Below, in pieces: positions 2,738-29,293 of a stretch of DNA of 32,240 bases. This stretch comes from Chlorobiota bacterium (lineage in GTDB: Bacteria; Bacteroidota; Bacteroidia; Bacteroidales; JAADJA01), in contig JAADJA010000015.1 in assembly GCA_013151015.1 (NCBI GenBank), positions 1-32,240 of the forward strand, written 5' to 3'. Each line of letters begins with the position of its first letter. Position 1 is the stretch's first letter. Made by a program: the position numbers and the translations under genes. The notes under the pieces were generated by a model. It saw only the letters and a list, made by a program, of their open reading frames with translations, searched no databases and had not been told where the DNA came from.

Positions 2738-2962
2738 ATGAAAAAATTAATTACTTCCATTTTAGTGTTCGTTTTCCTCTTTGCAGGACCCTTTATCTTG
2801 AATATATTTGCTGATACGCCACCGGATCCGGGCAGCGGTGGCCCGGGCAGCGGTGACCTACCTGTTGGTGGTGGTGCCCCAATTGGAGGAGGCTTGTTGA
2901 TCATGCTGGCCATGGGTGCTTTTTACGGAGTAAAGAGGATAATTGGATTTAGGAAAGCTTAA
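2738..2962 (+). CDS. Tiny secreted Gly/Pro-rich protein with C-terminal sorting-like tail (copy 1)
   Basis: A 74-residue protein. A signal peptide (basic MKK, hydrophobic 4-24, likely cleavage after A25 in IFA/DTPP) is followed by a Gly/Pro-rich stretch (26-52), the motif PVGGGAPIGGG (42-52), a short hydrophobic segment (53-63) and a basic end (YGVKRIIGFRKA). Signal peptide, small-residue motif, hydrophobic segment and basic tail form the tripartite architecture of exosortase-type (PEP-CTERM-like) or GlyGly-CTERM signals. From memory it resembles Bacteroidota PID-CTERM-like tails. Apart from the sorting signals, almost nothing remains: about 27 residues after processing. The frame extends to 2663, but the extra residues would bury the signal peptide, so the ATG at 2738 is chosen. 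It is 15 nt from the next gene, a paralogue, and the two probably share an mRNA. Function unknown; substrate of the exosortase at 12356 is inferred. Confidence 0.75.
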   Translation: MKKLITSILVFVFLFAGPFILNIFADTPPDPGSGGPGSGDLPVGGGAPIGGGLLIMLAMGAFYGVKRIIGFRKA

Positions 2963-2977
2963 TTTTATATTCGTATT

Positions 2978-3205
2978 ATGAAAAAAATATTTCAAACCTT
3001 ATTGGTAGTTTCAGCCTTTGTTCTGCTCCCATTTGCTTTGTCTGCACAAACCCCTCCCCATCCTAATGGTGGTGGTGCACCAGGTGGTGGAAATACTCCT
3101 GTTGGCGGGGGTGCACCTGTTGGTGGCGGCTTGATAATAATGCTGGTTACAGCATTGGCTTACGGAACAAAAAAGACATTTTATAAAAAGGACATTGAGT
3201 TCTAA
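2978..3205 (+). CDS. Tiny secreted Gly/Pro-rich protein with C-terminal sorting-like tail (copy 2)
   Basis: A 75-residue paralogue of the preceding gene. Signal peptide 1-23 (likely cut LSA/QTPP), linker 24-51 made mostly of Gly, Pro, Asn and Ala (QTPPHPNGGGAPGGGN, then TPVGGGAPVGGG), hydrophobic stretch 52-62 (LIIMLVTALAY), and basic tail GTKKTFYKKDIEF. There is no cysteine and no recognisable domain. It is more similar to the copy at 7599 than to its neighbour: both share QTPPHPNGGG and NTPVGGGAP. It is the last gene before a strong terminator at 3232-3271, so copies 1 and 2 form a short operon. The mature product would be a peptide of about 28 residues, either anchored or released after tail processing. 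Function unknown. Confidence 0.75.
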   Translation: MKKIFQTLLVVSAFVLLPFALSAQTPPHPNGGGAPGGGNTPVGGGAPVGGGLIIMLVTALAYGTKKTFYKKDIEF

Positions 3206-3231
3206 TTAATTTTCGGATGTATTTATTTATG

Positions 3232-3271
3232 TGCTTTACATTTCTTTATTGATTTGTAAAGCATTTTTTTT
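3232..3271 (+). terminator. Rho-independent terminator after the tiny-protein operon
   Basis: Perfect 9-bp stem TGCTTTACA (3232-3240) / TGTAAAGCA (3255-3263), 14-nt loop, followed directly by eight T (3264-3271). It separates the two tiny genes from rnhA, whose ATG is only 9 nt further on, so rnhA must use a promoter overlapping this site or readthrough. Confidence 0.85.
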
Positions 3272-3280
3272 ATCTGGGAT

Positions 3281-3913
3281 ATGGCAAAACAAAAATATTA
3301 TGTGGTTTGGGTGGGAAAAAGACCCGGGGTTTATACAAGTTGGGATGATTGTAAAAAACAAACCGATGGATACCCAAACCCTGTTTTCAAGTCTTTTAAA
3401 AACAAGGATATTGCGGAAAGGGCTTTTGAGGAAGGAAGCGGTAATTACATAGGCATCGATGAACGTATCCTGGCATTTAGCGATGAACAAAGGAAGTTGG
3501 TAGGTGACCCGGTTGCCAATAGCCTTTCGGTGGATGCGGCCTGTGCCGGAAACCCGGGCATTCTTGAATACCGTGGGGTTTATACCAGTTCAGGCCGGGA
3601 AGTTTTCAAAATGGGGCCATTCCCACAGGGGACAGTCAATATTGGTGAATTCCTTGCATTGGTCCACGGGCTTGCCATGCTAAAGCAAAAAGACAGCAAA
3701 ATTCCCGTCTATTCCGATTCCCGGACTGCCATGAGTTGGGTGAAAAGAAAAAAGATAAACACAAAACTGGAGAGGAACAGCCGCAACGATAAACTTTTCC
3801 AATTGGTCGATCGTGCACTTGTTTGGTTGCATAACAACAGCTACCCCAACAAAATATTGAAATGGGAAACAAAATACTGGGGCGAAATACCCGCTGATTT
3901 TGGGAGGAAATAA
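3281..3913 (+). CDS. rnhA: Ribonuclease H with N-terminal viroplasmin-like RNA-binding domain
   Basis: Cleaves the RNA strand of RNA-DNA hybrids (R-loops, primers). The 210-residue protein begins with a viroplasmin/RNase H N-terminal domain (about 4-50, KYYVVWVGKRPGVYTSWDDC, FKNKDIAERAF), which binds hybrids and is common in Bacteroidota and eukaryotic RNase H1. The catalytic domain follows (about 78-210). The metal-binding acidic residues are visible as D85 (SVDAACAGNPG), E123 (NIGEFLAL), D146 (YSDSRTA) and D206 (IPADF). Length and order fit the family. The gene sits alone between a terminator and a hairpin element that begins 3 nt after its stop. Confidence 0.92.
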   Translation: MAKQKYYVVWVGKRPGVYTSWDDCKKQTDGYPNPVFKSFKNKDIAERAFEEGSGNYIGIDERILAFSDEQRKLVGDPVANSLSVDAACAGNPGILEYRGVYTSSGREVFKMGPFPQGTVNIGEFLALVHGLAMLKQKDSKIPVYSDSRTAMSWVKRKKINTKLERNSRNDKLFQLVDRALVWLHNNSYPNKILKWETKYWGEIPADFGRK

Positions 3914-3916
3914 ATT

Positions 3917-3963
3917 AACCTTTCAGGTCGAAGAAAGCCAGCAAGAGGGAGACCTGGAAGGTT
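3917..3963 (+). repeat. Dispersed hairpin element, copy 1 (downstream of rnhA)
   Basis: Left arm 3917-3929 (AACCTTTCAGGTC), 21-nt loop containing AGAAAGCCAG, right arm 3951-3963 (GACCTGGAAGGTT), then GAAAA. All 13 positions pair, with one T-G wobble. It starts 3 nt after the rnhA stop. No T-run follows, so it is not a classical terminator. A second copy with the same arm and loop lengths lies on the minus strand at 17522-17568, just after the pepA stop. Confidence 0.75.
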
Positions 3964-3983
3964 GAAAACTGCTTATAAATATA

Positions 3984-4079
3984 TTTTCGGATTAACGGTG
4001 CACATTGCCATTGCGAAAATCCGAAAAAGCTATGTTTAACAGCGCATATAACCCCGGTGAAAATCAGAAAAAGCTGTGT
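3984..4079 (+). repeat. Intergenic dyad and 21-bp direct repeat
   Basis: The gene-free stretch 3914-4250 holds, besides the hairpin element and a promoter, a perfect 10-bp dyad (TTTTCGGATT 3984-3993 / AATCCGAAAA 4018-4027). It also holds a 21-bp direct repeat at 4015-4035 and 4059-4079 (GAAAATC[C/A]GAAAAAGCT[A/G]TGT, two mismatches). The role is unknown. It could be upstream regulatory DNA of the large gene at 4251 or the remains of a small repeat element. Confidence 0.5.
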
Positions 4080-4103
4080 CCAAGGATTGTTAATAAATAT
4101 TAG

Positions 4104-4132
4104 TTGTTCGTTTTATTTTTTTCTTACCTTTA
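4104..4132 (+). promoter_or_regulatory. Probable promoter of the large T9SS protein
   Basis: TTG at 4104-4106, an 18-nt spacer, then TACCTTTA at 4125-4132, one base off the TAnnTTTG consensus. This would give a 5' leader of about 110 nt before the ATG at 4251. Confidence 0.45.
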
Positions 4133-4250
4133 TCGCCCTTTTCGCTTTGGGTTTTTAATAAGTCGAAATTATCAATTAGTTATATGTTTTTCAAACATTT
4201 CTTACTAAATAATTTGAGAATCGAGTACTAACCTTTAAAATTTTATTGAT

Positions 4251-7200
4251 ATGAGAAAAATTACAATTCTTTTAATTACGGCCTTTATGGCTTTTGCTTA
4301 TGCCGGATGGTCACAGATCTTCATTACTGAGCTTGCCGATCCTAATAATGCGAGTGGGGCACGTTTTGTTGAACTTTATAATGCCGGGGCATCGAGTGTT
4401 GATTTAAGTACGGGTTGGGATTTGCAAAGGTGGACAAATGCAAATACTGCACCTCAAACAGCAAAAGAACTAACAGGTAGTATTCCAGCAGGAGGTTTTT
4501 ATATTGTTTGTGCAAATCAGACAACTTTTACCTCTACTTATGGATTTGCAGCGGATCAGAGTATTGGAACTGGCGGACCTGCTGACAGTAATGGTGATGA
4601 TCAAATTGCCTTACGTGATCCTTCTGATGTAATTGTTGATATGTTTGGTGTTCCTGGAGAAGATGGGAGTAACACAAATCATGAATTTGAGGATGGACGT
4701 GCTGAAAGAAAGTCAACTGTTACATCTGGGAATTCGACCTATACTTTTAGTGAATGGAACATATGGAATGACACAGGGGGGGCTGGTACAACAAACCTTC
4801 CCCAAAATGCTCCTGCTGATTTTGATCCGGGAGCTTGGATCGGGACATCTTCTTCCCCTATTATTTCGATTGCTCCCTCTGCTTTAAGTGGGCTAAACTA
4901 TGCTTTTGGAAGCGGGCCTTCAAGTACACAAACATTTACAGTTGAAGGATCGGATTTAACAGCAGATATTTCAGTTAACCCATCAACAAACTATGAGATA
5001 TCTTCTGATAATGTTACATTTCAGCTTAGTACGATTACACTTACACAATCAGGTGGTACAGTTACACCTACAACTTTATATACTCGTCTTCAGGCTGGAC
5101 TGAGTGCAGGGAATTATACCGAAGATATAATCATAACTTCAACTGGTGCAACTGACAAAACAGTTGCTTGTAGTGGGACTGTTGAAGTTCCCGCAACTAC
5201 AACCCTGACTTATAGTGAAACTTTCGATACAGGTTTTGGGGATTGTTATACTTATAGCGTTGCAGGAGTAAATGCGTGGTATCACTATGCAGGAGGACAA
5301 TTGGTCAATATGAACGGATTTGGAGGTAGTAATCCCGAAGAAGATTGGCTTGTTCTCCCTGGGATCAATTTGGATAATTATTCGAATGAGATAATGACTT
5401 TCACTACAAGTGCAAAATATGGAACCGTTGATGCGAATAATTACTTGAAGCTTTATTATTCCACAAATTATGCAGGTGTTGGAGACCCTTCAACGGCAAC
5501 GTGGGTAGAACTGACCTATAACCAACCGACCGGTATAAATAATTCAACAGAAGTTTCTGCATTTTCCGGGAACATTGATTTGTCTGGAATTTCTGGAACA
5601 AGTGTTTATATCGCATTCAAGTATTACTCAACCAATAGCCCTACAAGATGGGGGGTTGACGATATTTTAATAGGGGAAGCCCTAAGTTATTACAACTTGC
5701 AATGGCCACCTTCAGGAGCCATTAATTCGTGGTGGAACTATACCGTTTATGCCCAATGCTATGAGCCAGGGGTGACTGATGCTGGTGGACAAGGTGCAGG
5801 AATCGAATGTTGGATAGGTTACAGTCTTGTGGATGAAGACCCGAATGGAAGTGCAAATTTCTCTTGGGTAATGGCAAATTATGATTCGGATCAGGGTAAC
5901 AATGACCAGTATTCAACAAATTTAGGGGCTGATGTTCCCATGGCACCTGGAACCTATTATTACGTTTCAAGATGGCGGTTCAACAATGGGCCATATACAT
6001 ATGGCGGTTTTAATAGTGGCGCCTGGGATGGAACAACGAATGTTTCCGGTGTTCTTACCATCAATGCCTCGGCTGCTGCTTCCACATGGACAGGTGCTGT
6101 TGACAATAATTGGTTTGATGCCGGTAACTGGGACAACGGTGTTCCGGGTTATGTTACCGATGCCACCATACCTGCCGGGCTTGCGAATTATCCTGTAATC
6201 CCATCCGGAACCGCCTTATGCGGAACATTGCTTGTTCAATCGGGTGCTGCCGGTTCTGGTTCTATTGTTGAAACAAGCCTGAATGTGGTAGGTGCCACAA
6301 CAGTCGAGCGTTATCTTTCAGCCGACCAATATCATACATTCTCCCCATCTGTTGGTGGTGAATTAATTGATATATTCCATTTGAATGCCGGGGAGCCTGA
6401 TGTTTATCTCTATGAGAACAATGAGGCTACTTATGATTATACTGAGCTTTTTGCATTGGGAACGCCATTAAATGCTTATCAAGGTTATATGGTATGGGTT
6501 GATGGTGCAAATGCCGGAGGTGTTACTGGTTGGACTTTCTCAGAAACCGGTGCGTTAAATACCGGTCTATTTGGTGCTGCCGATAACCTTGTCAGGACTA
6601 CCACCGGGTTTAATTCTGGTTGGAACCTTCTTGGCAACCCCTATCCTTCTGCACTTGACTGGCAATCTGCTTACACAGCTTCCGGAGCTAATGTAGATGC
6701 AACTGTTTATGTTTATAATGGGACGCAATGGGCATCATGGAGTACTACTGGCTCGGTCAATGGAGGCTCCCAATACATTGCCATGGGGCAGGGTTTCTTT
6801 GTAAACTGCAGTACTCCCGGGACTGGTACTTTTATGGTTGACTATGCTGACCGGGTAAATAATAATGTTGGATACATGAAATCAGAAGTTTCCAATAAAG
6901 TAAGTTTGCAGGTGGAAGGTAACGGATATACCGATGAAACAGCGATTATATTCAACGATGCTGCAACCGCAGGTTTTGATTCTGATTTCGATGCCTATAA
7001 ACTTATGAGCGATCATCCGGGAGTTCCTTCATTGTACTCTATCGCATCTACTAACCTTGCCGTTAATGTGCTTCCCGAAACCAACTGGGTCCAGTTAGGG
7101 TTTAGTGCTGGAGTTAGTGGTGAATTTACGATCTCTGCAATTGAAATAAACGATATTGGTATTGTTGTTCTGGAAGATACTTTTACAGGTGAGATGACAG

Positions 7201-7520
7201 ACTTAACTTCAAGTTCATATACATTTGATTATACCTTAAATGATAATGAGCAAAGGTTTATTATCCATTTCTCACCATTATCGGTTGGTGAAAACACAGA
7301 TAAGCTGTTTACTGTTTATTCAGTGAATAATGAAGTGGTTGTTATAGCTCCTGAAAATACGGATGGACAAATAAACATCTATAATATGATGGGACAGGAA
7401 GTAATAGCAACACAGATAAATGGCACAATCAATACTATTGCCCTCGAAAAGAGTGCATATTATGTTGTGAAGGTGCTGAGCAATAACAGTATGACGACCA
7501 GGAAAGTTTTCATAAAATAA
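4251..7520 (+). CDS. Large secreted multidomain protein with lamin-tail domain and T9SS sorting tail
   Basis: A 1089-residue exported protein. Signal peptide 1-22 (ends AYAGWSQ). A lamin-tail-like domain at about 23-195 (IFITELADPNNASGARFVELYN, WDLQRW, GGFYIVCA). An Ig-like beta domain at about 203-312. A cleaved-adhesin/choice-of-anchor J-like domain at about 315-478 (ETFDTGFGDCYTYSV, EEDWLVLPGINL, RWGVDDILIG). Further beta-rich segments run to about 1010, including STWTGAVDNNWFDAGNWDNG near 610, typical of Bacteroidota surface proteins. The last 70 residues (INIYNMMGQEV, YYVVKVLSNN, RKVFIK) are a type A T9SS sorting domain, normally cleaved during outer-membrane export and A-LPS anchoring. 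No catalytic motif was recognised; an adhesin or structural surface role is likely. It lies between loci for the tiny Gly-rich proteins. Start: ATG with an immediate signal peptide. Confidence 0.88.
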   Translation: MRKITILLITAFMAFAYAGWSQIFITELADPNNASGARFVELYNAGASSVDLSTGWDLQRWTNANTAPQTAKELTGSIPAGGFYIVCANQTTFTSTYGFAADQSIGTGGPADSNGDDQIALRDPSDVIVDMFGVPGEDGSNTNHEFEDGRAERKSTVTSGNSTYTFSEWNIWNDTGGAGTTNLPQNAPADFDPGAWIGTSSSPIISIAPSALSGLNYAFGSGPSSTQTFTVEGSDLTADISVNPSTNYEISSDNVTFQLSTITLTQSGGTVTPTTLYTRLQAGLSAGNYTEDIIITSTGATDKTVACSGTVEVPATTTLTYSETFDTGFGDCYTYSVAGVNAWYHYAGGQLVNMNGFGGSNPEEDWLVLPGINLDNYSNEIMTFTTSAKYGTVDANNYLKLYYSTNYAGVGDPSTATWVELTYNQPTGINNSTEVSAFSGNIDLSGISGTSVYIAFKYYSTNSPTRWGVDDILIGEALSYYNLQWPPSGAINSWWNYTVYAQCYEPGVTDAGGQGAGIECWIGYSLVDEDPNGSANFSWVMANYDSDQGNNDQYSTNLGADVPMAPGTYYYVSRWRFNNGPYTYGGFNSGAWDGTTNVSGVLTINASAAASTWTGAVDNNWFDAGNWDNGVPGYVTDATIPAGLANYPVIPSGTALCGTLLVQSGAAGSGSIVETSLNVVGATTVERYLSADQYHTFSPSVGGELIDIFHLNAGEPDVYLYENNEATYDYTELFALGTPLNAYQGYMVWVDGANAGGVTGWTFSETGALNTGLFGAADNLVRTTTGFNSGWNLLGNPYPSALDWQSAYTASGANVDATVYVYNGTQWASWSTTGSVNGGSQYIAMGQGFFVNCSTPGTGTFMVDYADRVNNNVGYMKSEVSNKVSLQVEGNGYTDETAIIFNDAATAGFDSDFDAYKLMSDHPGVPSLYSIASTNLAVNVLPETNWVQLGFSAGVSGEFTISAIEINDIGIVVLEDTFTGEMTDLTSSSYTFDYTLNDNEQRFIIHFSPLSVGENTDKLFTVYSVNNEVVVIAPENTDGQINIYNMMGQEVIATQINGTINTIALEKSAYYVVKVLSNNSMTTRKVFIK

Positions 7521-7527
7521 AACCTTA

Positions 7528-7560
7528 CCTTTTCCCCCTACTACAGGTGGGGGGAAAAGG
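7528..7560 (+). other. Perfect intercistronic hairpin
   Basis: 11-bp perfect stem CCTTTTCCCCC (7528-7538) / GGGGGAAAAGG (7550-7560) with an 11-nt loop, 7 nt after the stop of the large T9SS gene and 38 nt before the next ATG. No T-run follows. It could be a leaky terminator or a 3'-end stabiliser that lets the tiny gene at 7599 be expressed separately. Confidence 0.55.
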
Positions 7561-7598
7561 ATATAATCAAATTATTATAAACCAATAAATTAAAAGAT

Positions 7599-7817
7599 AT
7601 GAAAAAAGTATTGAAATCAATTCTTGTAGCGGGTTTATTCCTCGCATTGCCTTTGTTTTCACTTGCCCAAACACCTCCACATCCAAATGGTGGTGGAGGA
7701 CCGGGAAGTGGAAATACACCGGTTGGGGGTGGTGCACCAATTGGTGGCGGTCTTATCATTATGATGGTAATGGGTGCTGCTTATGGTTCCAAGAAAGTGT
7801 TTAGGGCCTTTAAATAG
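7599..7817 (+). CDS. Tiny secreted Gly/Pro-rich protein with C-terminal sorting-like tail (copy 3)
   Basis: A 72-residue paralogue of the proteins at 2738 and 2978. Signal peptide 1-23 (likely cut SLA/QTPP), Gly/Pro/Asn linker 24-51 (QTPPHPNGGGGPGSGN, then TPVGGGAPIGGG), hydrophobic segment 52-62 (LIIMMVMGAAY), basic tail GSKKVFRAFK. The tail motif GGGAP[IV]GGGL, the YGxK[KR] junction and the absence of any cargo domain are shared by all three copies. It is downstream of the T9SS protein and followed by a strong terminator. The repeated, conserved architecture at two loci argues for real genes rather than chance frames. Function unknown; substrate of an exosortase or a rhombosortase-like protease is inferred. 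Confidence 0.75.
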   Translation: MKKVLKSILVAGLFLALPLFSLAQTPPHPNGGGGPGSGNTPVGGGAPIGGGLIIMMVMGAAYGSKKVFRAFK

Positions 7818-7834
7818 CAAGAAGCTAAATAATT

Positions 7835-7872
7835 AAAACCCGGTCATTCCGTTTTGATTGACCGGGTTTTTT
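7835..7872. terminator. Bidirectional terminator between convergent genes
   Basis: Perfect 12-bp stem AAAACCCGGTCA (7835-7846) / TGACCGGGTTTT (7859-7870) with a 12-nt loop and T-runs on both strands. It ends the tiny gene (plus) and comF (minus), whose TAA stop at 7871-7873 abuts it. Confidence 0.85.
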
Positions 7873-8560
7873 AATGGGAAGCAAATGCGATAGCAGCAAC
7901 ACTTATCCGTATTCCATCCACTGTTTTCAAGGCATTGATGCAAGCCTCCATTGTTGCCCCCGTGGTAATCACATCATCCACAATCAAGACATGTTTGTTT
8001 TCCAGCCCCGAATTGTCTTTTATCTTGAAGATTTCACTTACGTTTTCCCAACGTTTATAACGGCTTTTTTTTGTTTGGGTGGAAGTTTCGGTATTGCGAA
8101 ATACCGAGGTAGTGTCCATTGTGGTTTTCATGGTTTCGGCAAGACCGGATGCAAATGATTCTGCCTGGTTAAAACCTCTCTTTTTCAACTTTGCTTTATG
8201 CAACGGTATGGGGATTACCACATCCACATCATTCAAATATGTGGATCCTTTTAATTGCCCACCGTAAAGTTGTCCGAGGAAAACCCCGATTTCCTCATGG
8301 CCATGGTACTTTAAATGATGGATCAAAGTTTGGACTTTTCCGCCCTTTCTGTAAAAATAGAGGGCCGTTGCCATTTCGATATTTGCCCTTCCCCAAAAGG
8401 TTTTGCTCGCCGGATTGTCTTTGTCGAGATGGAAGTTTGTTTTGGGCAAATGAAACAAGCAATTCGTGCAGATTATTTCTTCATTGTGAAAAAGTGAATT
8501 CCCACAGGCCATACAGGTTTTTGGAAAAAACAACGATATAAAATCATTCAATAAATTCAT
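7871..8560 (-). CDS. comF: ComF family phosphoribosyltransferase-like protein
   Basis: A 229-residue ComF/GntX-type protein. An N-terminal zinc-ribbon has paired cysteines C16-x2-C19 and C31-x2-C34. A conserved PIPLHKAKLKKRGFNQAE block lies at 117-134. The PRPP-binding loop VLIVDDVITTGAT is at 191-203. In naturally competent bacteria ComF works with ComFA in DNA uptake; in Bacteroidota the biochemical role is less certain, and no other competence gene is in this window. The length is usual for the family. It is convergent with the tiny gene at 7599 and divergent from rnr. A TATCTTTA box (minus, 8567-8574) just upstream of the ATG is a weak promoter candidate. Confidence 0.88.
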   Translation of the reverse strand: MNLLNDFISLFFPKTCMACGNSLFHNEEIICTNCLFHLPKTNFHLDKDNPASKTFWGRANIEMATALYFYRKGGKVQTLIHHLKYHGHEEIGVFLGQLYGGQLKGSTYLNDVDVVIPIPLHKAKLKKRGFNQAESFASGLAETMKTTMDTTSVFRNTETSTQTKKSRYKRWENVSEIFKIKDNSGLENKHVLIVDDVITTGATMEACINALKTVDGIRISVAAIAFASH

Positions 8561-8589
8561 AAGTGATAAAGATAGGTTTTTTTCAATTA

Positions 8590-8639
8590 AGTTAAAAAGT
8601 TATGAGTTAAAAGTTATGCGTTTGGAGTTAAAAGTAATT
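8590..8639 (+). repeat. Degenerate heptanucleotide repeat, locus 1
   Basis: Seven consecutive units with a 7-nt period and one 8-nt slip: AGTTAAA, AAGTTATG, AGTTAAA, AGTTATG, CGTTTGG, AGTTAAA, AGTAATT. It lies between the divergent comF and rnr starts. See the related loci at 8721, 17454 and 23841. Confidence 0.65.
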
Positions 8640-8720
8640 AGCTTTGCAAATATGTATTTTGGAAACAAAACCATTAATAAAAATATAATCAGCAAAATTC
8701 AGTTTTGAACAATCGATAAC

Positions 8721-8769
8721 GCATAACACATAACCCATAACACATAACACATAACGCATAACACATAAC
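8721..8769 (+). repeat. Heptanucleotide tandem repeat immediately before rnr
   Basis: Seven exact units of NCATAAC (first base G,A,C,A,A,G,A), ending 6 nt before the rnr ATG. The array would be in the 5' leader if transcription starts at the TAGCTTTG box (8639-8646). The 18 nt at 8755-8772 recur identically upstream of pdxA. Confidence 0.85.
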
Positions 8770-8775
8770 CCAAAT

Positions 8776-10929
8776 ATGGCAGCCAAAAAAAGAAAAAATA
8801 CCAGGATAACAAAGAATACTTTTATCGAAACCGTCCTCAATGTATTCAGGAACAATCCGCATCGCGGATATAATTTTCGACAATTGTCGCATGCACTTGG
8901 AATTGAAGACAAAGCGAGCAAACAAGTTGTAAAAGATATTCTTTCGAAGTTGGAATACAACAAGGAAATAGTCGAAGCCCGCAGGGGAAAGTATAAGCTG
9001 AACCCTGAAAGCCTGAAAAAATTCCTTGCAAAAAACACTATCACGGGTATCGTGGACATGAAGCAAACGGGAAAGGCTTACATCCTGACAAAGGATTTGG
9101 ATGAAGATATCTTCATTGCGGCCAACAATACATACCATGCCTTGAACAGGGATACCGTAAAGGTACAGTTGTTCCCAAAACGAAGGGGGAGGAAAACCGA
9201 AGGCCGGATTGTCGAAGTCTTAAAAAGAGGCAAAAAGCAGATTGTGGGCATATTGGACGTGTCGGCCAAATATGCTTTTTTAATCCCTGACGATGTAGCG
9301 GTCCCGGTGGATATTTACATTCCTTTGACAAGTTTGAACGGGGCTAAGAACGGACAAAAAGTCATTGTGCGGATCACCGACTGGCCAGAGCATTCAAAGA
9401 ACCCTTTTGGTGAAGTGACCGACATCCTTGGAAATCCGGGCGAACACAAGGTAGAGATGCAATCCATCCTTGCCGACTTTGGTTTTCCGGTGAGTTTCCC
9501 AAATAGTGTTTTAAAAGAAGCGGAAAAAATCAATAATCGGATATCGAAGGAGGAGATAAACAAAAGAAGGGATTTCAGGAAAACCTTTACTTGTACGATA
9601 GATCCAAAGGATGCCAAGGATTTTGATGATGCTTTATCGTTATTGAAATTGAAAAATGGGAATTGGGAAGTAGGTATCCATATTGCAGATGTTTCGCATT
9701 ATGTGAGACCGGGAAATCTTGTCGATTCCGAGGCTTATGAAAGGGGGACTTCCATTTATCTTGTTGACAGGGTAATCCCAATGCTCCCTGAAAAACTTTC
9801 CAATGAATTGTGTTCGCTAAAACCAGAAGAGGAAAAGCTGTGTTTCTCGGCCGTTTTTGAACTAACGGAAAAAGCAGATGTAGTAAAAGAATGGTATGGA
9901 AAAACCATCATCTATTCGGATCGCCGGTACAATTATGAAGAAGTTCAGAAAATAATCGAGGGTGGAAATGACAACTACCGCAATCAAATATTGACCTTGC
10001 ACGAACTGTCATCTAAATTAAGGAAAAAGCGATTTGATAATGGGGCGATTGCATTTTCATCACATGAAGTGAAATTTGAACTGGACGAAGCTGGAAAACC
10101 AATTGGTGCTTATGTGAAAGAACAAACCGACTCGAACAGGTTGGTGGAGGATTTTATGTTGCTGGCAAACCGCAAGGTCGCTGAAACCATTGGCCGAAGG
10201 CATGGCAGGCAAGAGCCGCGAACTTTTATTTATCGTGTGCACGATGAACCCAATCCTGAAAAACTACAGACCTTTGCTGAATTCATCACAAAGTTTGGTT
10301 ATAAACTGAACATTGGCAGCCGGAAATCCATTTCTTCTTCCATGAACCAACTTTTTAAACAAATAAGGGGAAAAGGGGAGGAGAACATGATCGAGAAAAT
10401 TGCGGTAAGGACAATGTCAAAGGCCGAATACACAGTTAAAAACATTGGGCATTATGGCTTGGCCTTTAAGTATTATACCCATTTTACTTCCCCCATCCGC
10501 CGATATCCCGACCTGATGGTCCACCGCTTGCTTGAGATGTATTTGCAAGGGGCAAAATCGGTGAACCCGGCCGAATATGAAGAAAAATGTGTCCACTCTT
10601 CCGAAATGGAACGTAAAGCATTGGATGCCGAAAGGGCTTCAATTAAGTATAAACAGGCTGAATACCTTCTGGACAAAGTTGGGCAGGAGTTTAATGGGCT
10701 AATTTCCGGTGTGAGCAAATGGGGCCTTTTCGTTGAACTGGATGGGAACAAATGCGAAGGGATGGTCTCCCTTAAATACCTTGACGATGACTTTTATTAT
10801 CTTGACGAAGATAATTACATGGTCGTGGGACATAGCCATCGCAAAGAATACCGCTTGGGCGATCCTATCCGTATCAAGGTAAAAAGAATTGATTTGGGCA
10901 AGAAACAAATGGATTTTATCCTGGCCTAA
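8776..10929 (+). CDS. rnr: Ribonuclease R (3'-5' exoribonuclease, RNB family)
   Basis: Processive 3'-5' exoribonuclease that degrades structured RNA and helps ribosomal RNA quality control. The 717 residues show an N-terminal winged-helix domain (about 15-75, RGYNFRQLSHALG), two cold-shock-like RNA-binding domains (about 85-225), the RNB catalytic domain with the metal-binding motif TIDPKDAKDFDDA (about 274-286), HIADVSHYVRPG and HFTSPIRRYPDLMVHR, and a C-terminal S1 domain (about 640-715). It lacks the long lysine-rich tail of the E. coli enzyme, as is usual in Bacteroidota. A possible -7 box TAGCTTTG (8639-8646) lies 130 nt upstream, with a seven-unit heptad repeat between it and the ATG. 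The stop overlaps the stop of the convergent gene at 10926 by 4 nt. Confidence 0.95.
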   Translation: MAAKKRKNTRITKNTFIETVLNVFRNNPHRGYNFRQLSHALGIEDKASKQVVKDILSKLEYNKEIVEARRGKYKLNPESLKKFLAKNTITGIVDMKQTGKAYILTKDLDEDIFIAANNTYHALNRDTVKVQLFPKRRGRKTEGRIVEVLKRGKKQIVGILDVSAKYAFLIPDDVAVPVDIYIPLTSLNGAKNGQKVIVRITDWPEHSKNPFGEVTDILGNPGEHKVEMQSILADFGFPVSFPNSVLKEAEKINNRISKEEINKRRDFRKTFTCTIDPKDAKDFDDALSLLKLKNGNWEVGIHIADVSHYVRPGNLVDSEAYERGTSIYLVDRVIPMLPEKLSNELCSLKPEEEKLCFSAVFELTEKADVVKEWYGKTIIYSDRRYNYEEVQKIIEGGNDNYRNQILTLHELSSKLRKKRFDNGAIAFSSHEVKFELDEAGKPIGAYVKEQTDSNRLVEDFMLLANRKVAETIGRRHGRQEPRTFIYRVHDEPNPEKLQTFAEFITKFGYKLNIGSRKSISSSMNQLFKQIRGKGEENMIEKIAVRTMSKAEYTVKNIGHYGLAFKYYTHFTSPIRRYPDLMVHRLLEMYLQGAKSVNPAEYEEKCVHSSEMERKALDAERASIKYKQAEYLLDKVGQEFNGLISGVSKWGLFVELDGNKCEGMVSLKYLDDDFYYLDEDNYMVVGHSHRKEYRLGDPIRIKVKRIDLGKKQMDFILA

Positions 10930-12248
10930 ACCGGTGTGATCCTTAATGAAATATCATAGGTCAATTCAATATGCAGTCCGGTTTCGAGCCAAATACGGAA
11001 ACTTGCCAATAATAAAACAAAAGTGATTATATATGCCCAATGTATCTTTGTTGGTTTTTTGTCATATTTGAAATTTATTATCGGCTTTGCCCTTCTGTTA
11101 AAAATAACAGGGACAACGGCAAGCGACATCGTAAGTAAATTCCCGACGTCATAGGGCATATTGTTTGGGACTTTCACTAGGTAAATCAACAATCCACCGA
11201 TAAGCCAGGGCAAAATCACCTGGTGCAACAAAAAACGGTTCCTGTTTTCTTTTTTGATCCGATAGGCCGAATTGCTCGTTTCAAGGAATTTCCCTGTGGA
11301 ATAATATCCGATCAAACCAAGAATGAAAAGAAATGTGAGCGAAAAGAATATTTGCCAGAAAACATTCATGTAAAGCCAGTTGGCCACGTACCCAAAGCCC
11401 TGGTCGGTAGAAACGCCCGATGCAAACGCACCGAAAAACAGGTTGAACCCGTGAAGAGCGATCCATATCACGAACAGTTTCATAAAGCCCTTTACCTTCG
11501 GGCGGTTTGCAATTACTTTATAAAATAAGATACCGATCAAGAGCGAAACCAAAGGCCCAGAAAATGTGACCACGATGATATTGAAACGTGTCCATAATGG
11601 TGAGAAATCATTAAATGCAAGATCATAATAAAACAGAACCGAATCAAGGTGCCAACGCGATGCAACGATCATCACGGCCAACTGATAGGTGATATACACG
11701 ATCAAATAGGCCGTAACGTACAATGCCAATGAATTGATCGTATATTTAAAGTAGTTCCTCTCTTGTTGCTTTAATTTCTCCTGAATTCTTTGGTCCCTGG
11801 TTTTAGTCTCTTCCTCCGGGGGTGCAAAACCCTTTTTTTTCGGCTTTTTATAATTTGGGAAGAAAGAGCGGATATAGCTTATCCTCTTTTCCTTTCTGAA
11901 TTCCTTTGCCCGCTTCTTTTGGATTTTCTGTTTGAACTTTTTCTTCCTGTTCTTTTCTATCGCCCTTTTTCGTTTCTTTCTGTATTCCTGGAGGTATGCG
12001 GATAAACTGAAACGAGGCTTTTTTAACCTCTTGTATTTGGTTTCTTGTTTCTTGATCCTACTTATCTTACCATGTTCATCGTATGATATTTCTGTGGATT
12101 TTGAAAAAAGGGAACTCCCCTCTACTGTTGATTTGCGATGGGAAGGTTTTCTCCCCAGCTTCTTCCCAATATCATGGATGAATTGCTGAAAAGAATTTCG
12201 TTTTCTGCGCCCGTACCTGTGTTTTTTATTTTCTGGAAATTTTGGCAT
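10926..12248 (-). CDS. Polytopic membrane protein with long, highly basic N-terminal extension
   Basis: Not recognised as a named family. Of 440 residues, the first 165 are hydrophilic and extremely Lys/Arg-rich, notably 85-125 (runs such as RKKRKRAIEKNRKKKFKQK). About seven hydrophobic segments follow, near 171-196, 222-244, 254-276, 289-315, 339-358, 366-384 and 402-420. No HExxH, Walker or catalytic signature is evident. The basic part is predicted to be cytoplasmic and could contact nucleic acid, ribosomes or acidic lipid. It is divergent from the exosortase gene with a 107-nt gap, and a TAACTTTG box (minus, 12267-12274) lies 18 nt before its ATG. It converges on rnr with a 4-nt overlap of stops. 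Proximity to the exosortase suggests, but does not show, a shared role. Confidence 0.75.
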   Translation of the reverse strand: MPKFPENKKHRYGRRKRNSFQQFIHDIGKKLGRKPSHRKSTVEGSSLFSKSTEISYDEHGKISRIKKQETKYKRLKKPRFSLSAYLQEYRKKRKRAIEKNRKKKFKQKIQKKRAKEFRKEKRISYIRSFFPNYKKPKKKGFAPPEEETKTRDQRIQEKLKQQERNYFKYTINSLALYVTAYLIVYITYQLAVMIVASRWHLDSVLFYYDLAFNDFSPLWTRFNIIVVTFSGPLVSLLIGILFYKVIANRPKVKGFMKLFVIWIALHGFNLFFGAFASGVSTDQGFGYVANWLYMNVFWQIFFSLTFLFILGLIGYYSTGKFLETSNSAYRIKKENRNRFLLHQVILPWLIGGLLIYLVKVPNNMPYDVGNLLTMSLAVVPVIFNRRAKPIINFKYDKKPTKIHWAYIITFVLLLASFRIWLETGLHIELTYDISLRITPV

Positions 12249-12355
12249 ATCCTAAAAAGAAAGGTGCAAAGTTATTAAAGTTTTATAAATTAGCCGACTT
12301 ATTTATTTGGGCTGCTAAAGTAACTAAAAATAAGTTTCAAATCTATTCTTCTGAT

Positions 12356-12955
12356 ATGCGAACAATTATTCAACGGATAAAAACGATTATTAAAAAGTAC
12401 CACCTTGAAGCCTTTGTGGATGTGGCCATATTTATGGGGATATTGCTGTTTTTCCATTTTTTATATAGGTACTTAATACGAACCCCGGAGGTTGCCCAAT
12501 TTGTGAATGGAACACGAACCTGGTTGGCCCACGAAGTATTCCTTGCCAGCGAATGGTTTCTGCACACTTTTAACGTGAAGGTAACCACCTTCCCGGAATA
12601 TACCATCGATGACCACGTTTGGAAAAACCTTATATATTACCCCGAAGGAAATGGTTATGTGGCAGTAAACCCGGCTTGTTCGGGCATGAAACAATTTTAC
12701 CAGTGGATTGTGTTAATGATTCTGTATCCCGGTCCCTGGAAACACAAATTGTGGTTCATACCCATGGGGCTTGTGATTATCCACATTGTTAATATAGGGC
12801 GTATAGTGGGGATGACTTTTGTGACCATTAATTTACCGGAGCATTGGCATTTTATCCATGACTGGATCATGCGCCCTTTCTTTTATGTGGTGATGTTCAT
12901 GTTATGGGCATGGTGGAACGATAAGTTCCGGCATGGAAAGAAAACTGTTGCATAA
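12356..12955 (+). CDS. Exosortase/archaeosortase family transpeptidase-like membrane protein
   Basis: Exosortases are polytopic membrane Cys proteases/transpeptidases that process C-terminal sorting signals of exported proteins at the inner membrane. This 199-residue protein has a first helix near 19-40, a periplasmic stretch (about 45-100) and further helices near 113-124, 134-157 and 171-187. The putative catalytic residues are C108 in NPACSGMK, R149 in NIGRIVG and H168 in HFIHDW, in the order and spacing expected of the family. The frame extends to 12242, overlapping the divergent gene, but the ATG at 12356 begins a typical N-terminus and is preferred. Which Xrt subfamily it belongs to cannot be settled from memory; it does not look like XrtF. 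No PEP-CTERM or EPS cluster is adjacent. The best substrate candidates in the window are the three tiny proteins at 2738, 2978 and 7599. Confidence 0.85.
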   Translation: MRTIIQRIKTIIKKYHLEAFVDVAIFMGILLFFHFLYRYLIRTPEVAQFVNGTRTWLAHEVFLASEWFLHTFNVKVTTFPEYTIDDHVWKNLIYYPEGNGYVAVNPACSGMKQFYQWIVLMILYPGPWKHKLWFIPMGLVIIHIVNIGRIVGMTFVTINLPEHWHFIHDWIMRPFFYVVMFMLWAWWNDKFRHGKKTVA

Positions 12956-13064: not shown

Positions 13065-13778
13065 TTACCTGCTGAAAACATTGTATTTGATAATACTGAA
13101 TATCGCCCTGAAACCATCTTTCCAGTCTATTTTTTTGCCTTCATCATAAGTCCTGCCGTAGTATGAAATCCCTACTTCATAGATGCGGATATTTGGGATG
13201 CGGGATATTTTGGCCGTTACTTCCGGTTCAAACCCAAAACGGTTTTCTTTTAATTTCAGGGGCTTGATGATTCCTGAACGGAAAAGCTTGTAACAGGTTT
13301 CCATGTCTGTCAGGTTAAGGTTGGTGAACATATTGGAAAGGAATGTGAGGAATTTATTCCCAATTGAATGCCAAAAGAACAATATCCTGTGGGGTGTCCC
13401 TCCCAAAAACCGGGAGCCATATACCACATCGGCCACACCATCAACCATAGGTTTTAACAAGTAGTTGTATTCATTGGGGTCATATTCCAGATCGGCATCT
13501 TGGATAATCAGGAAATCACCGTTTGCCAATTCTATTCCCTTATGCAAAGCCGCTCCCTTGCCCATGTTCTTGGCCTGGTTAAAAAGCTGGATTTGTGTTC
13601 CGGGATGTTGCGAAATATATTCTTCAACAACCTCCTTTGTTTTATCCGTTGAAAAGTCATTTACAATGATGATTTCCTTTTCGATGGATGCGATCAAATC
13701 GACGGCAATTACTTTGTTAAGGATCAGGTGTATGGTGTCCTGTTCGTTGTATGCAGGTATTATGATCGATAGTTTCAT
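13065..13778 (-). CDS. Family 2 glycosyltransferase, polyprenyl-phosphate sugar synthase-like
   Basis: A 237-residue GT-A fold enzyme of the dolichol-phosphate-mannose synthase (DPM1) type, which moves a sugar from a nucleotide donor to a polyprenyl phosphate or related acceptor. It shows the N-terminal [16 protein letters not shown], the NDFSTDKT loop near 40-47, the DxD metal motif D94-A-D96 ([11 protein letters not shown]) and the family block [10 protein letters not shown] (158-167). There are no C-terminal membrane helices, so it is soluble or peripheral. It begins 45 nt after murF-alr on the same strand and is probably co-transcribed with it, consistent with an envelope-building role. 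It converges on the exosortase gene 109 nt away. Donor and acceptor are unknown. Confidence 0.88.
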
Positions 13779-20914: not shown

Positions 20915-22398
20915 ATGTTACATCAAAGATTACAACAAAAGCTATTACAAAAACTTTCGCCTCAGCAGATATTGCTGATGAAGTTGCTACAGGTTCCCAC
21001 GGTGGCCCTTGAACAAAGGATAAAGCAGGAAATAGAAGAGAACCCCGCCCTTGAAGAGAGTGAAGAGGAGGAAGAAGAAACCCTTGATATCCTGGATGAA
21101 ATTGACCCGGAAACCAATTCGGAGGACACAGAAGTTGAAAGCGATGCCGACACAAAAGACAGTGAAGATGAATTTGACCTCGGTGATTATATGGACGATG
21201 ATGAAATTCCTTCCTATAAATTAAATGCAAACAATCACAGTGCGGACGATGAGCCCCGCGATATTCCTTTTATTTCAGGAACTACTTTTCAGGAGGCCTT
21301 GCTCTCACAGTTGGGATTGAGCAGTTTGGACGAAAGAAAGCATTTGATCGCTTCCATTATTATCGGTAATCTCGACGATTCGGGATACCTGAACAGGGAC
21401 ATTAATTCCCTGGTTGACGATTTGGCCTTTACCCAGAATATCCAGACAAGCAGGGAAGAAATCACCGAGCTTTTGAAAATAATCCAGGGTTTTGACCCTC
21501 CGGGCGTTGGTGCACGGAATTTACAGGAGTGCCTTTTGATACAATTGCGCAAAAAGCAAAACGGATCAAAAGACATTGATTTGGCCATCCATATCCTCGA
21601 AAGGTATTTCAATGAGTTCACGAAAAAGCATTATGATAAAATCCTCAAAAAAGCCAAAATAACCGAGGAAGATTTGAAAGATGCCATTGAAGAAATCCTA
21701 AAACTGAACCCCAAGCCGGGAAACTCCCTTGGGGAAACTTCAAAGACAAACCATTACATTTTACCCGATTTTATTATTACAACAACAATGGGGATTTGGA
21801 GCTGCACCTGAATTCGAGGAATGCTCCAGAGTTAAAGTTGAGCCGGAATTATGTTGACATGCTGGAAGGGTATGCCCACAGCAAAGACAAAAAAAAGCAC
21901 AAGGATGCCATTACTTTTGTGAAACAAAAAATAGATTCGGCGAAATGGTTTATCGATGCCATTAAACAACGGCAAAACACATTGGAAACTACCATGAACG
22001 CAATCATGGAGTATCAGCGGGAGTATTTCCTCACCAGCGATGAAACCAAGTTGCGGCCCATGATCCTGAAAGATATCGCGGAAATCGTTAACCTCGATAT
22101 CTCCACGATTTCACGTGTTGCAAACAGTAAATATGTGCAAACCCCATTCGGGACATTTTTATTGAAAAGCTTTTTCTCGGAATCCATGCAAACCGAAAGC
22201 GGTGAAGAGGTTTCCACACGGGAGATAAAGAAGATTCTAATGGATTGCATTGATGCGGAAGAAAAAACCAAGCCCTATACCGATGAACAGCTTACAAAAA
22301 TTTTAAAGGAAAAAGGCTATAACATTGCCCGGCGAACGGTTGCCAAATACCGTGAACAATTAAGTATCCCGGTGGCCCGGTTGCGCAAAGAACTGTAA
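20915..22398 (+). CDS. rpoN: RNA polymerase sigma-54 factor, interrupted by a one-base frameshift
   Basis: Sigma-54 directs RNA polymerase to -24/-12 promoters and needs an AAA+ activator. The first frame (20915-21811, 298 aa) has the Gln/Leu-rich activator-contact region (LQQKLLQKLSPQQILLMKLL), an acidic linker and the start of the core-binding domain. The second frame (to 22398) has the rest, including the helix-turn-helix (DISTISRVANSKYVQTPFG) and the RpoN box ARRTVAKYREQL near the C-terminus. The frames join at FIITTTMG. Adding one A in 21780-21788 gives FIITNNNGDLELHLNSR, the normal family sequence, and makes the whole gene an exact 494-codon frame. As written, the product loses its DNA-binding part. 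It is either a sequence error or a recent null mutation; the remaining protein shows no other decay. Confidence 0.9.
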
Positions 22399-25237: not shown

Positions 25238-27076
25238 TTATTCAACAATCATTTTCTTTGTGATTTTTGTTTCGCCCGAAATTACGGTATAGAAATAAAC
25301 ACCGGAATCAAGGTTTTGGGCATCAATGGTCAATTGTTGTTTTCCGGCGGGATATTCCCTTTTGGGAACCTGGGAAACCAATTGCCCCATTATATTATGG
25401 ACCTCAATGCTCAGGGTAGTTGCCTCGGTGAGGTTCACATAAACAGTGGATGTTCCATTGAACGGGTTTGGGTAATTTTGTGAAACATTGCTTGTATTGA
25501 TTGCATCCTTTGTTTCTTCAACCCCCACAATATCCGATTTCAGTACTTTTACCACCCTGATATGGTTCTCGGTAGCTGCGGTAGTGGCAACCCCCGGAAC
25601 ATCGTCGGCCTGGTAACTGTAATAAATGTTGTCGTCCGTATTGGCTGCAACGGAAGGGAACACACATTCATCAAAAATATAAATCAAATCGCCGTTCATA
25701 TCATGGAAAGTCCCCCAGGTTGTTCCATTGTCGGGGGAAGTACGCGCCCAGATATGCCTGTATGTAGAAGCCCCATTATCAAAACCCTCCGTTACGGAAG
25801 AATAGAAAACATAAAGTTTGTTCATGTCGTCAATGGTGATTTGTGGCTGGCTTGAAAGACCTGTATTGTAGGCTGCGTCATTGATGCCATCCCATAAGAT
25901 ATCCAATTCGCCGTTTCCATCAACGTCCTGTGACCAACCAATCAGGTTCACGTCCTCTTCCAGTTCGGAATCGGGGTCTCCATATGGGTCCAGGGCGTGT
26001 AAGCCACTGGAGAATGTGGGCATGTCTTCGTTCCAGTATCCTATTCCGTCAACTGCGGGATAATAGGATTGAGCACCTGTATCATCGGCAATTGCACGGG
26101 TAATCCCAAATACGACATGTACTTTGCCGTTGTTGTCAAATGCAAGGTGATGTGAGCCATCGGCGCAATAGAATGTATCGGCAGGAAACCCTCCCAAAGG
26201 ATAAGGACACTCCCAGATTACTGTTTTGTCCCAACTGTCACCGTTATCATCCGATTTCATCAAAACAAGGTCTGTCCAGCTATCGCCTGCCAGAAAAGCT
26301 ATCATACCATTTTTTGGTTCAGCAAACTCATAAATATCGCCACCCCAATTTGTATATTGATCAGGGCCCAATTCATCAAAGAAATGGTTTTCGATTTCCC
26401 AGCTTTCGCCCCCATCGGAAGAACGGGAATACAGAAGTGCGTTGTCCTGTCCATTGTAACTTACATAAGTAACCGAAAGGAAGTGGATAAACTCATGGTT
26501 ATCCCCGGAAGTAATCCCCCTTGGCCATGAAATATCCGCCGCACTGGAAGGGCCTGCCTGGATAGCAATTTGCCATTCGCCAACACCTTTTTCTTGCCTG
26601 ATACCGTACAAAAGGCCATCGGTCATGTGATGGCAAACGAAAAGCTCGCCGTTTTCCCCGTAAGCAGTATAAGCCGGCCACCCTGTTTTTGTGTTCTCAA
26701 TTTGTGCCGTTGGCCATTCGCCCCAGGCATTTCCATCGAAATAATTATAGCCCGTGCCCCGGTCATTCCCACCTGGATTGCCTTCGGGGCCAAATGTCCA
26801 AGTTCCGCCCATGGTTCCATCACCGTACAAATACAAGCGGTTTTGGCATGATACGTTTGATTGCAGGTCGTACCAGGTATTGCCGATTTTGTCTTCCTCA
26901 AAAAGATTGGCGCTTTTTGTACCGGGCACAACTGCGTTATGGTCTCCCACATCTTTAATGGCTTTCGTCTTTTTTATCTGGATATTGCGAATTGAAGCAG
27001 GGGCATAAACCCTTTTTTGAGCCATTCCACTAAAGACAAAACCAATGGCCAAAACAAACAGTACTAATTTTTTCAT
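25238..27076 (-). CDS. Secreted Asp-box (BNR/sialidase-fold-like) protein with T9SS tail, paralogue A
   Basis: 612 residues. Signal peptide 1-20 (ends SGMAQ). The body is a probable beta-propeller with three Asp-box motifs: SSDGGESW (219-226), SDDNGDSW (275-282) and SPDNGTTW (447-454). The C-terminal T9SS type A domain begins near 532 (SQNYPNPFN) and ends SGVYFYTVISGETKITKKM. Asp-boxes mark sialidase-fold propellers, but no sialidase catalytic Arg triad is obvious, so hydrolase activity is not claimed. It is the last and most diverged of three tandem paralogues. A TAACTTTG box (minus, 27117-27124) lies about 40 nt upstream, so it may be transcribed separately. Confidence 0.85.
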   Translation of the reverse strand: MKKLVLFVLAIGFVFSGMAQKRVYAPASIRNIQIKKTKAIKDVGDHNAVVPGTKSANLFEEDKIGNTWYDLQSNVSCQNRLYLYGDGTMGGTWTFGPEGNPGGNDRGTGYNYFDGNAWGEWPTAQIENTKTGWPAYTAYGENGELFVCHHMTDGLLYGIRQEKGVGEWQIAIQAGPSSAADISWPRGITSGDNHEFIHFLSVTYVSYNGQDNALLYSRSSDGGESWEIENHFFDELGPDQYTNWGGDIYEFAEPKNGMIAFLAGDSWTDLVLMKSDDNGDSWDKTVIWECPYPLGGFPADTFYCADGSHHLAFDNNGKVHVVFGITRAIADDTGAQSYYPAVDGIGYWNEDMPTFSSGLHALDPYGDPDSELEEDVNLIGWSQDVDGNGELDILWDGINDAAYNTGLSSQPQITIDDMNKLYVFYSSVTEGFDNGASTYRHIWARTSPDNGTTWGTFHDMNGDLIYIFDECVFPSVAANTDDNIYYSYQADDVPGVATTAATENHIRVVKVLKSDIVGVEETKDAINTSNVSQNYPNPFNGTSTVYVNLTEATTLSIEVHNIMGQLVSQVPKREYPAGKQQLTIDAQNLDSGVYFYTVISGETKITKKMIVE

Positions 27077-27116
27077 AAAATTTATAGATTTAATTAAACA
27101 ATTGAAATTCTTTTGG

Positions 27117-27124
27117 CAAAGTTA
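27117..27124 (-). promoter_or_regulatory. Candidate -7 box for paralogue A
   Basis: TAACTTTG on the minus strand matches TAnnTTTG, about 40 nt before the ATG at 27076. No clear -33 TTTG is present. The surrounding TTTGGCAAAG is shared with the equivalent site of paralogue C. Confidence 0.4.
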
Positions 27125-27180
27125 TAAGAATTCCTTAAAATATAAGATTTTTGTTAACAGAGTTCTTCCAATTCAATAAT

Positions 27181-27261
27181 GGTCACCCTGAGCTTGTCAA
27201 GGTCATGTTGAGCCTGTCAAGGTCATGTTGAGCCTGTCAAAGGTCATGTTGAGCCTGTCGA
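27181..27261. repeat. Four tandem 20-bp repeats
   Basis: Units at 27181-27200, 27201-27220, 27221-27240 and, after one extra A, 27242-27261. The core is GGTCATGTTGAGCCTGTCAA; the first unit reads GGTCACCCTGAGCTTGTCAA and the last ends GTCGA. The sequence resembles a GTTGAGCCTGTCGAAACA-type dispersed repeat I recall from many bacterial genomes. It lies between paralogues A and B. Confidence 0.85.
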
Positions 27262-27315
27262 AACACGGCCATTTTTTTTATCAGATATCTATAAGCTTAT
27301 CTGATTGAAACCCCT

Positions 27316-29178: not shown

Positions 29179-29228
29179 GTTAAGTTTTTTAAAAGTTCAA
29201 CTAATATATTTTGAAAAGTATGGAAACG

Positions 29229-29236
29229 CAAATGTA
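29229..29236 (-). promoter_or_regulatory. Candidate -7 box for paralogue B
   Basis: TACATTTG on the minus strand is an exact TAnnTTTG match, 50 nt before the ATG at 29178. It sits directly after the terminator of paralogue C, which supports independent transcription. No -33 TTTG is seen. Confidence 0.4.
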
Positions 29237-29240
29237 AAAA

Positions 29241-29274
29241 AAAATCCTGCATATTCTATGACATGCAGGATTTT
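29241..29274 (-). terminator. Terminator downstream of paralogue C
   Basis: Perfect 12-bp stem AAAATCCTGCAT (29241-29252) / ATGCAGGATTTT (29263-29274) with a 10-nt loop. On the minus strand the stem runs into a long U-run (plus-strand A-run at 29236-29244). It is about 20 nt past the stop at 29294. Confidence 0.85.
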
Positions 29275-29293
29275 AAACATAATTAATTGGTGA

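Follow-up and report, generated by a model that had tools for sequence, protein, structure and literature searches.

On what does the small exosortase encoded in this stretch of DNA act, and what might its product be for? The window, which is the whole stretch analyzed (32,240 nucleotides of contig JAADJA010000015.1 from a Chlorobiota bacterium, GCA_013151015.1), carries one exosortase gene and three genes for very short proteins that end in a candidate sorting signal. We found that such micro-genes accompany this kind of exosortase across genomes, that many of them lie directly behind genes for large cargos of the type IX secretion system (T9SS), and that their predicted mature peptides are more alike among the paralogs of one genome than between genomes. 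Our tentative answer, to which we give somewhat less than an even chance, is that the exosortase belongs to a peptide-processing system linked with type IX secretion and that its peptide would serve RemA-type adhesins, most likely as an anchor or docking partner.

The three micro-proteins share one build: a signal peptide leads into a Gly/Pro stretch that closes with PVGGGAP[IV]GGG, and a single hydrophobic helix and a terminal YGxK[KR] follow. The first (positions 2738 to 2962, forward strand; 74 amino acids [aa], peptide class D as defined below) consists of a signal peptide, DTPPDPGSGGPGSGDLPVGGGAPIGGG, a transmembrane helix (TM), and YGVKR, and its listed open reading frame (ORF) starts further upstream, at a TTG. 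The second (2978 to 3205, forward strand; 75 aa, class H; QTPPHPNGGGAPGGGNTPVGGGAPVGGG, TM, YGTKK) begins 15 bases past the first, and the third (7599 to 7817, forward strand; 72 aa, class H; QTPPHPNGGGGPGSGNTPVGGGAPIGGG, TM, YGSKK) starts 78 bases after the gene of a T9SS cargo. At 51% and 60% identity to the first, the second and third have P-V-G-G-G-A-P-[IV]-G-G-G-L and Y-G-x-K in common with it. With the curated PID-CTERM model (NF046080), the three tails score 23.2, 14.7, and 17.9 bits, respectively, all below the cut-off of 26, and they are therefore not assigned to that family.

The exosortase gene (12356 to 12955, forward strand) encodes 199 aa from an ATG or 237 aa from an alternative TTG start at 12242. 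The protein is a member of the exosortase/archaeosortase family TIGR04178 (61 bits; cut-off, 23) and of Pfam Exosortase_EpsH (PF09721; 42.1 bits; cut-off, 25.7). C108, R149, and H168 are kept in all 37 exosortases of an alignment comprising the window protein, the 30 best-scoring XrtX-like proteins of the class sample described below, and 6 proteins of its own family of genomes. The best family is exosortase X (NF046081) at 88.2 bits, which is under the cut-off of 170, and judged by these scores we call the enzyme XrtX-like rather than filing it as XrtX; the NF046081 profile search passed this cut-off in 0 of the 17 genomes of the own family. The NCBIfam assignments of exosortase X and PID-CTERM go by model names and scores. 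The source genome, a 4.32-Mb draft in 237 contigs, contains a single match to the window exosortase and a single match to NF046081. Among named genome contigs, a scan picked up 264 exosortase relatives, and the best 80 of these are all labeled as metagenome-assembled or uncultured and belong to Bacteroidales, Flavobacteriales, and kin, the nearest being Bacteroidetes bacterium Dive96_bin10.114 with an exosortase 97% identical. A structure search returned no credible solved relative of the enzyme. A preliminary description of this DNA had named the Cys-Arg-His set of the exosortase and the three paralogs of 72 to 75 residues with their tripartite Gly/Pro-TM-YGxK[KR] ends, and had seen no PEP-CTERM and no EPS-linked cluster. 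The enzyme and the three proteins, in which a signal peptide precedes these parts, proved real, and the motif of the window tails is AP[IV]GGG with no PEP.

The tail is not confined to the window. The tail occurs at 13 loci of the source genome, each of them small, and one of these has a weak and degenerate neighbor; two of the 13, on contig C183, are frame-broken, and one on contig C37 ends early. The two on C183 (locus L096, about 7940 to 8169 and about 11698 to 11942) are micro-genes behind T9SS cargos, with frames broken at a similar place. Most copies in this genome have GGG in place of DGG. Two copies outside the window pass the PID-CTERM cut-off, at 35.1 and 26.6 bits, and the former reads PIDGG and so forms a bridge between window-type tails and PID-CTERM.

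Across genomes, the exosortase and the tail go together. In the own family (17 genomes, including the source), the tail is present in 17 of 17 and the exosortase in 16 of 17, with 2 to 15 tail profile matches each. Among the 295 genomes of the class sample, an XrtX-like match (E value of ≤0.001) was found in 172 and PID-CTERM in 132; without correction for phylogeny, both were present in 127, the exosortase alone in 45, the tail alone in 5 (two of them 80 to 85% complete), and neither in 118. Put the other way, 118 of the 123 genomes without an XrtX-like match are also without the tail. With the strict XrtX cut-off, the tail is present in 70 of 78 genomes, and part of the 45 exosortase-only genomes may reflect the loose threshold catching other exosortases. 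Of the 30 best XrtX loci, 22 have a tail gene directly ahead of xrtX. In the 80 exosortase loci of the named contigs, a tail-core profile gave 21 matches versus 0 in the reversed DNA of the same loci; one of the 21 (L237) is without the motif and looks false. Of the PID-CTERM matches listed for the class, 141 of 150 lie in open frames of ≤130 aa and 149 of 150 in frames of ≤200 aa, so that tiny substrates are the rule for the XrtX group and no quirk of the window. One class tail match, in genome G188, falls within a 995-aa frame; the exceptions to the micro-protein rule noted at L201 and L287 are a frame of 995 aa that closes with PIDGE-TM-R and a Cys-rich protein of 139 aa whose tail has PLDGG. 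Rhombosortase was considered as the tail processor and rejected, as the source genome has no TIGR03902 match over the cut-off of 84 (best, 41.8 bits). The pairing of enzyme and tails, put forward in the preliminary description as the most plausible one, is thus well supported by the curated families, by the co-occurrence in 127 of the 132 tail-bearing genomes, and by gene order; the tail itself is more than a chance motif, and tails in genomes lacking the exosortase, which would have counted against the pairing, are few.

That description had also called the micro-substrates cargo-free. Their small size stands, but the label cargo-free overlooks that the gene directly ahead of them often encodes a T9SS adhesin. 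In the window, this partner (4251 to 7520, forward strand) is a large T9SS cargo of 1,089 aa with Pfam LTD and DUF5017 domains and a RemA/RemZ-type C-terminal region. It belongs to T9SS type A by TIGR04183 (26.8 bits; cut-off, 23) and scores 20.5 with Pfam PF18962, below the cut-off of 27; by profile scores, its type A-like C-terminal signal (7248 to 7517, forward strand) is a subtype apart from the canonical ones of the genome. For the own family, 140 tail profile matches were reduced to 119 distinct proteins, with fragments and contig-end matches left out. The upstream partner was taken as the nearest long ORF ending ≤450 bases away, and a T9SS signal as a TIGR04183 match with an E value of up to 0.01. 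By these rules, 79 of the 119 tails have a same-strand upstream ORF, and 58 of the 79 ORFs carry a T9SS type A signal, compared with at most 3 of 75 random control ORFs (from a pool of 261 in the same loci), a bound set by the T9SS family falling outside the 25 listed families, the smallest of which has 3 members. In the rest of the class, a motif rule yielded 46 micro-genes; an upstream ORF precedes 36 of them and has a T9SS signal in 28 cases. The gaps from cargo to micro-gene are mostly 2 to 93 bases, and in some genomes (e.g., L062, L083, and L089) the order is cargo, micro-gene, xrtX. Within the source genome, a T9SS cargo gene precedes 8 of the 13 tail loci, and there are at least 150 T9SS-signal matches (of 253 candidates), with no tail-coupled gene among the 150 listed.

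Coupled cargos of different families have about 310 aa in common ahead of the signal, including GWNLLGNPYPSxxDW. In the window, this conserved region (GWNLLGNPYPSALDW) was placed by alignment at 6318 to 7253, forward strand, and gave no Pfam match. A profile of the window region and 14 relatives matches RemA (E value, 1.1e-47) and RemZ (4e-42) of Flavobacterium johnsoniae, as well as part of Mfa5, and because of this homologous C-terminal region and the type A signal we regard the cargo as a putative RemA/RemZ-type adhesin. In the class sample, the region and the exosortase occur together in 164 genomes, the region alone in 22, the exosortase alone in 8, and neither in 101; the region profile used was built from coupled cargos, and 12 of its 21 rows are members of the 295-genome sample outside the own family. 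In the named-contig set, an ORF with the shared region lies directly upstream in 9 of the 21 micro-gene matches (one probably false and two short of upstream room), and several Flavobacteriales and Sphingobacteriaceae loci have a micro-gene and xrtX without a cargo. No fold could be assigned to the region; beyond the T9SS signal domain (RgpB, RemA, and RemZ) and a DUF3244 domain, the structure matches were long ones of low TM-score. The gene link between an exosortase system and adhesins appears to be new within the openly licensed PubMed Central (PMC) literature.

What the micro-genes encode is itself informative. Their peptides fall into two classes, D (DxPPDP...) and H (QxPPHP... or QPQPWDP...), and 116 of the 119 proteins were kept for comparison, the two frame-broken C183 copies and one without a recognizable end point being dropped and the truncated C37 copy being counted in class H. 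Across the 46 class D proteins, which come from 17 genomes, the identity of the peptide is 0.917 within genomes and 0.775 between them, and this difference of 0.142 compares with at most 0.042 in 2,000 label shuffles. The flanking parts of the same proteins go in the opposite direction, with 0.447 within versus 0.470 between genomes for the signal peptide and 0.436 versus 0.458 for the TM. The effect is weaker in class H (70 proteins from 15 genomes; 0.785 within versus 0.742 between; shuffles, ≤0.035). At identical residues, the same codon is used in class D at rates of 0.451 within and 0.438 between genomes (0.37 expected from codon use), so the likeness of the peptides is held at the protein level, and recent gene conversion is unlikely to be behind it. 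For class H the corresponding rates are 0.422 and 0.369, and given the higher rate within genomes some recent copying is possible. In other families, the copies compared in G188 (three), G186 (two), and G129 (two) have identical peptides within precursors that differ, and use different codons for them; G240 has four like peptides among its five, two of the copies being near-identical in DNA and hence recent duplicates. The genome-specific peptide appears to be new within the same literature. As a separate observation, CWPPPC ahead of PIDGG is common in micro-peptides of the wider class (L034, L037, L039, and others) and was not seen in the own family.

Class D tails mostly have no T9SS gene as a neighbor; they lie next to a TonB receptor gene or a DUF3078 protein gene, or at the head of the cluster. 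By C-terminus pattern, 9 of the 46 class D micro-genes are divergent from a TonB-dependent receptor gene (e.g., L141; one confirmed by Pfam), and 12 of 46 lie about 160 to 270 bases after a DUF3078-type gene (e.g., L091; one confirmed). A 307-aa neighbor of a class D tail was considered as a PorP/SprF shuttle and rejected, having no NCBIfam match and DUF3078 as its Pfam family.

From these patterns we infer the following pathway. Sec would carry the micro-protein out, and signal peptidase would remove its signal peptide at a predicted A|Q or A|D site. The XrtX-like exosortase would then cut ahead of the C-terminal helix, at PI[GD]GG, and, by the chemistry of exosortases, would release or, more likely, conjugate the peptide of about 24 to 28 residues to an acceptor; the preliminary description likewise proposed export and processing to a peptide of about 28 residues, which remains a prediction here. 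Once at the surface, the conjugated peptide would work for T9SS adhesins of the RemA type, its most likely role being to anchor or dock them. If all paralogs of a genome must fit one shared partner, the mature peptide would be uniform within a genome and drift between genomes. In the sections of PMC10936215 that bear on it, the F. johnsoniae xrtF mutant loses biofilm, and its row in the table of colonization phenotypes is that of the porU and porZ mutants. A second published result that fits is that the C-terminal signal of RemA, in contrast to that of AmyB, allows anchoring besides release (PMC12618676). We favor an anchor as the role of the peptide; its uniformity would also be accounted for if it acted as a signal or assembled into a coat.

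As a signal, the peptide would be secreted, with several genes supplying one lineage-specific product for a shared receptor and the adhesin linkage reflecting joint regulation of surface life; we think this unlikely, yet it is the best of the alternatives. Duplicated pheromone genes elsewhere offer an analogy, a uniform mature peptide within divergent precursors is what a shared receptor would select, and the nine class D genes divergent from TonB-receptor genes would suit it. Against this, no consistently linked sensor was seen, although sensors were not searched for systematically, a Gly/Pro-rich sequence is unusual for a signal, and in many genomes it is a T9SS adhesin that steadily accompanies the micro-gene. 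Co-assembly of the peptides into a surface layer or matrix, in which copies must be alike and which adhesins bind, is less probable still. The uniformity within genomes, the many profile matches per family genome, and the need of F. johnsoniae biofilm for an exosortase, as given in part of PMC10936215, agree with it; many class genomes, however, have a single listed micro-gene, and no evidence of assembly was found, none having been sought. We give the same low standing to a role of the micro-proteins at the inner membrane in the assembly or quality control of T9SS cargos, in which they would act uncut and merely be removed by the exosortase. The tight position behind the cargo gene and the TM and basic tail kept in the listed intact copies would fit such a role, but it is the exported peptide and not the TM part that is held uniform within a genome, and many copies have no cargo gene. 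That linkage and co-occurrence are by-products of T9SS-rich and adhesin-rich genomes, the micro-proteins having an unrelated envelope role, is the least probable of all. T9SS signals do abound in the source genome, and the class search took no account of T9SS presence; against this reading, it is one signal subtype to which the tails are coupled (8 of 18 high-scoring genes, as compared with none among the 150 T9SS matches listed), and at most 3 of 75 control ORFs carry the signal.

Several facts weigh against the anchor reading. The main ones that it leaves unexplained are the class D genes, which are often cargo-free (T9SS neighbor in 9 of 46 by C-terminus pattern) and in some cases divergent from TonB receptors. 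The coupling is also incomplete: no cargo gene ends ≤450 bases upstream at L277, L279, L280, L282 to L284, or L286 to L288 (Flavobacteriales, Sphingobacteriaceae, and others), and of 18 source-genome genes above 60 bits with signal profile A5, which itself included seven of the eight tail-coupled cargos, a tail follows 8 and is absent behind the other 10. Of the 186 region-bearing genomes, 22 have no XrtX-like match (five of these are 60 to 80% complete), and the co-occurrence of the exosortase with the tail and with the region is uncontrolled for T9SS presence or phylogeny. The paralog peptides of G058 differ, and for the cargo region the structure model (mean pLDDT, 65; pTM, 0.53) is too weak to place a peptide-binding site. 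In the same phenotype table of PMC10936215, so far as its rows bear on this, the xrtF row is also that of the FJ0334 and FJ0651 mutants, which are outside the T9SS, and is one column off those of sprA and porV; and since XrtF is of another subfamily than XrtX, the fit with the published xrtF results is an analogy.

It is unusual for an exported peptide to be uniform among paralogs and different between genomes while its codons have diverged; this points to a partner that can be searched for, and the patterns described suggest a shared surface role of the micro-peptides. Carried further, the anchor reading would make XrtX a dedicated peptide-conjugating exosortase, its product the means by which RemA-type T9SS adhesins are anchored at the surface or coupled to the track, and the peptide a lineage-specific key matched by the paralogs and the cargo region of one genome, with exosortase sorting and type IX secretion forming one attachment pathway across Bacteroidia; we consider this whole rather doubtful, if better placed than any of the alternatives above. 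The substrates of the Bacteroidota exosortase were left to future work in the relevant part of PMC10936215, and the gene-level link from exosortase to micro-peptide to RemA-type adhesins makes both that question and the anchoring of RemA testable.

Other genes of the window stand apart from these subjects. An RNase H gene (3281 to 3913) lies between the first two micro-genes and the T9SS cargo gene, and the arrangement is similar in L100, L101, L104, L105, L108, and L109. Oriented divergently to the exosortase gene, a gene at 10926 to 12248 encodes a membrane protein of 440 aa that has no confident family match, and it shares 4 bases with the end of an RNase R gene; a similar gene lies between the exosortase and RNase R genes in the relatives L100, L101, and L103 to L107. 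Three tandem, similar T9SS proteins of 612 to 625 aa (25238 to 31171) have high-scoring signals and no micro-gene, and a protein that we take to be sigma-54-like (20915 to 22398) is split in two ORFs by a broken frame or an assembly error.

GlyGly-CTERM proteins carry a Gly-rich motif ahead of a TM and a basic tail, an arrangement that the window tails share; the GlyGly-CTERM/rhombosortase system differs in its processor, for which the source genome has no match over the cut-off. With PEP-CTERM/EpsH, the window system shares the tripartite C-terminal signal and the exosortase family, and it differs in having neither a PEP motif nor a large cargo on the tail. Among the 15 of 25 window genes scanned against family libraries, no exopolysaccharide gene cluster was seen, in line with the preliminary description, and one family-2 glycosyltransferase (13065 to 13778) was noted. 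Exosortase systems have been discussed, in part of PMC7468200, as a parallel to C-terminal sugar attachment. The XrtF system of Flavobacterium (Fjoh_1448/1449) is likewise built on a Bacteroidota exosortase, although of another subfamily, the window enzyme scoring 49 bits with XrtF against 88 with XrtX. RemA and RemZ share with the window cargo a homologous C-terminal region of about 370 aa that includes the type A signal (as far as covered in PMC10994853), and in the portion of PMC12618676 concerned the RemA type A signal leads to surface anchoring and release and the AmyB signal to release; the window cargo differs by its N-terminal LTD and DUF5017 domains, and its gene is followed by a PID-CTERM-like micro-gene. 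The closest relation is to exosortase X and PID-CTERM, kinds of enzyme and tail that are already named in NCBIfam; in the openly licensed PMC literature, we found no paper naming either or treating the system. The window enzyme and tails score below the curated cut-offs, the XrtX-associated membrane protein NF046082 has no match in the source genome, and there are many micro-genes to a genome, lying away from the enzyme gene. Common to both are a small exosortase with the Cys-Arg-His set, very short substrates with P-I-[DG]-G-G, a TM, and G-x-K-K, and a micro-gene that often lies beside xrtX.

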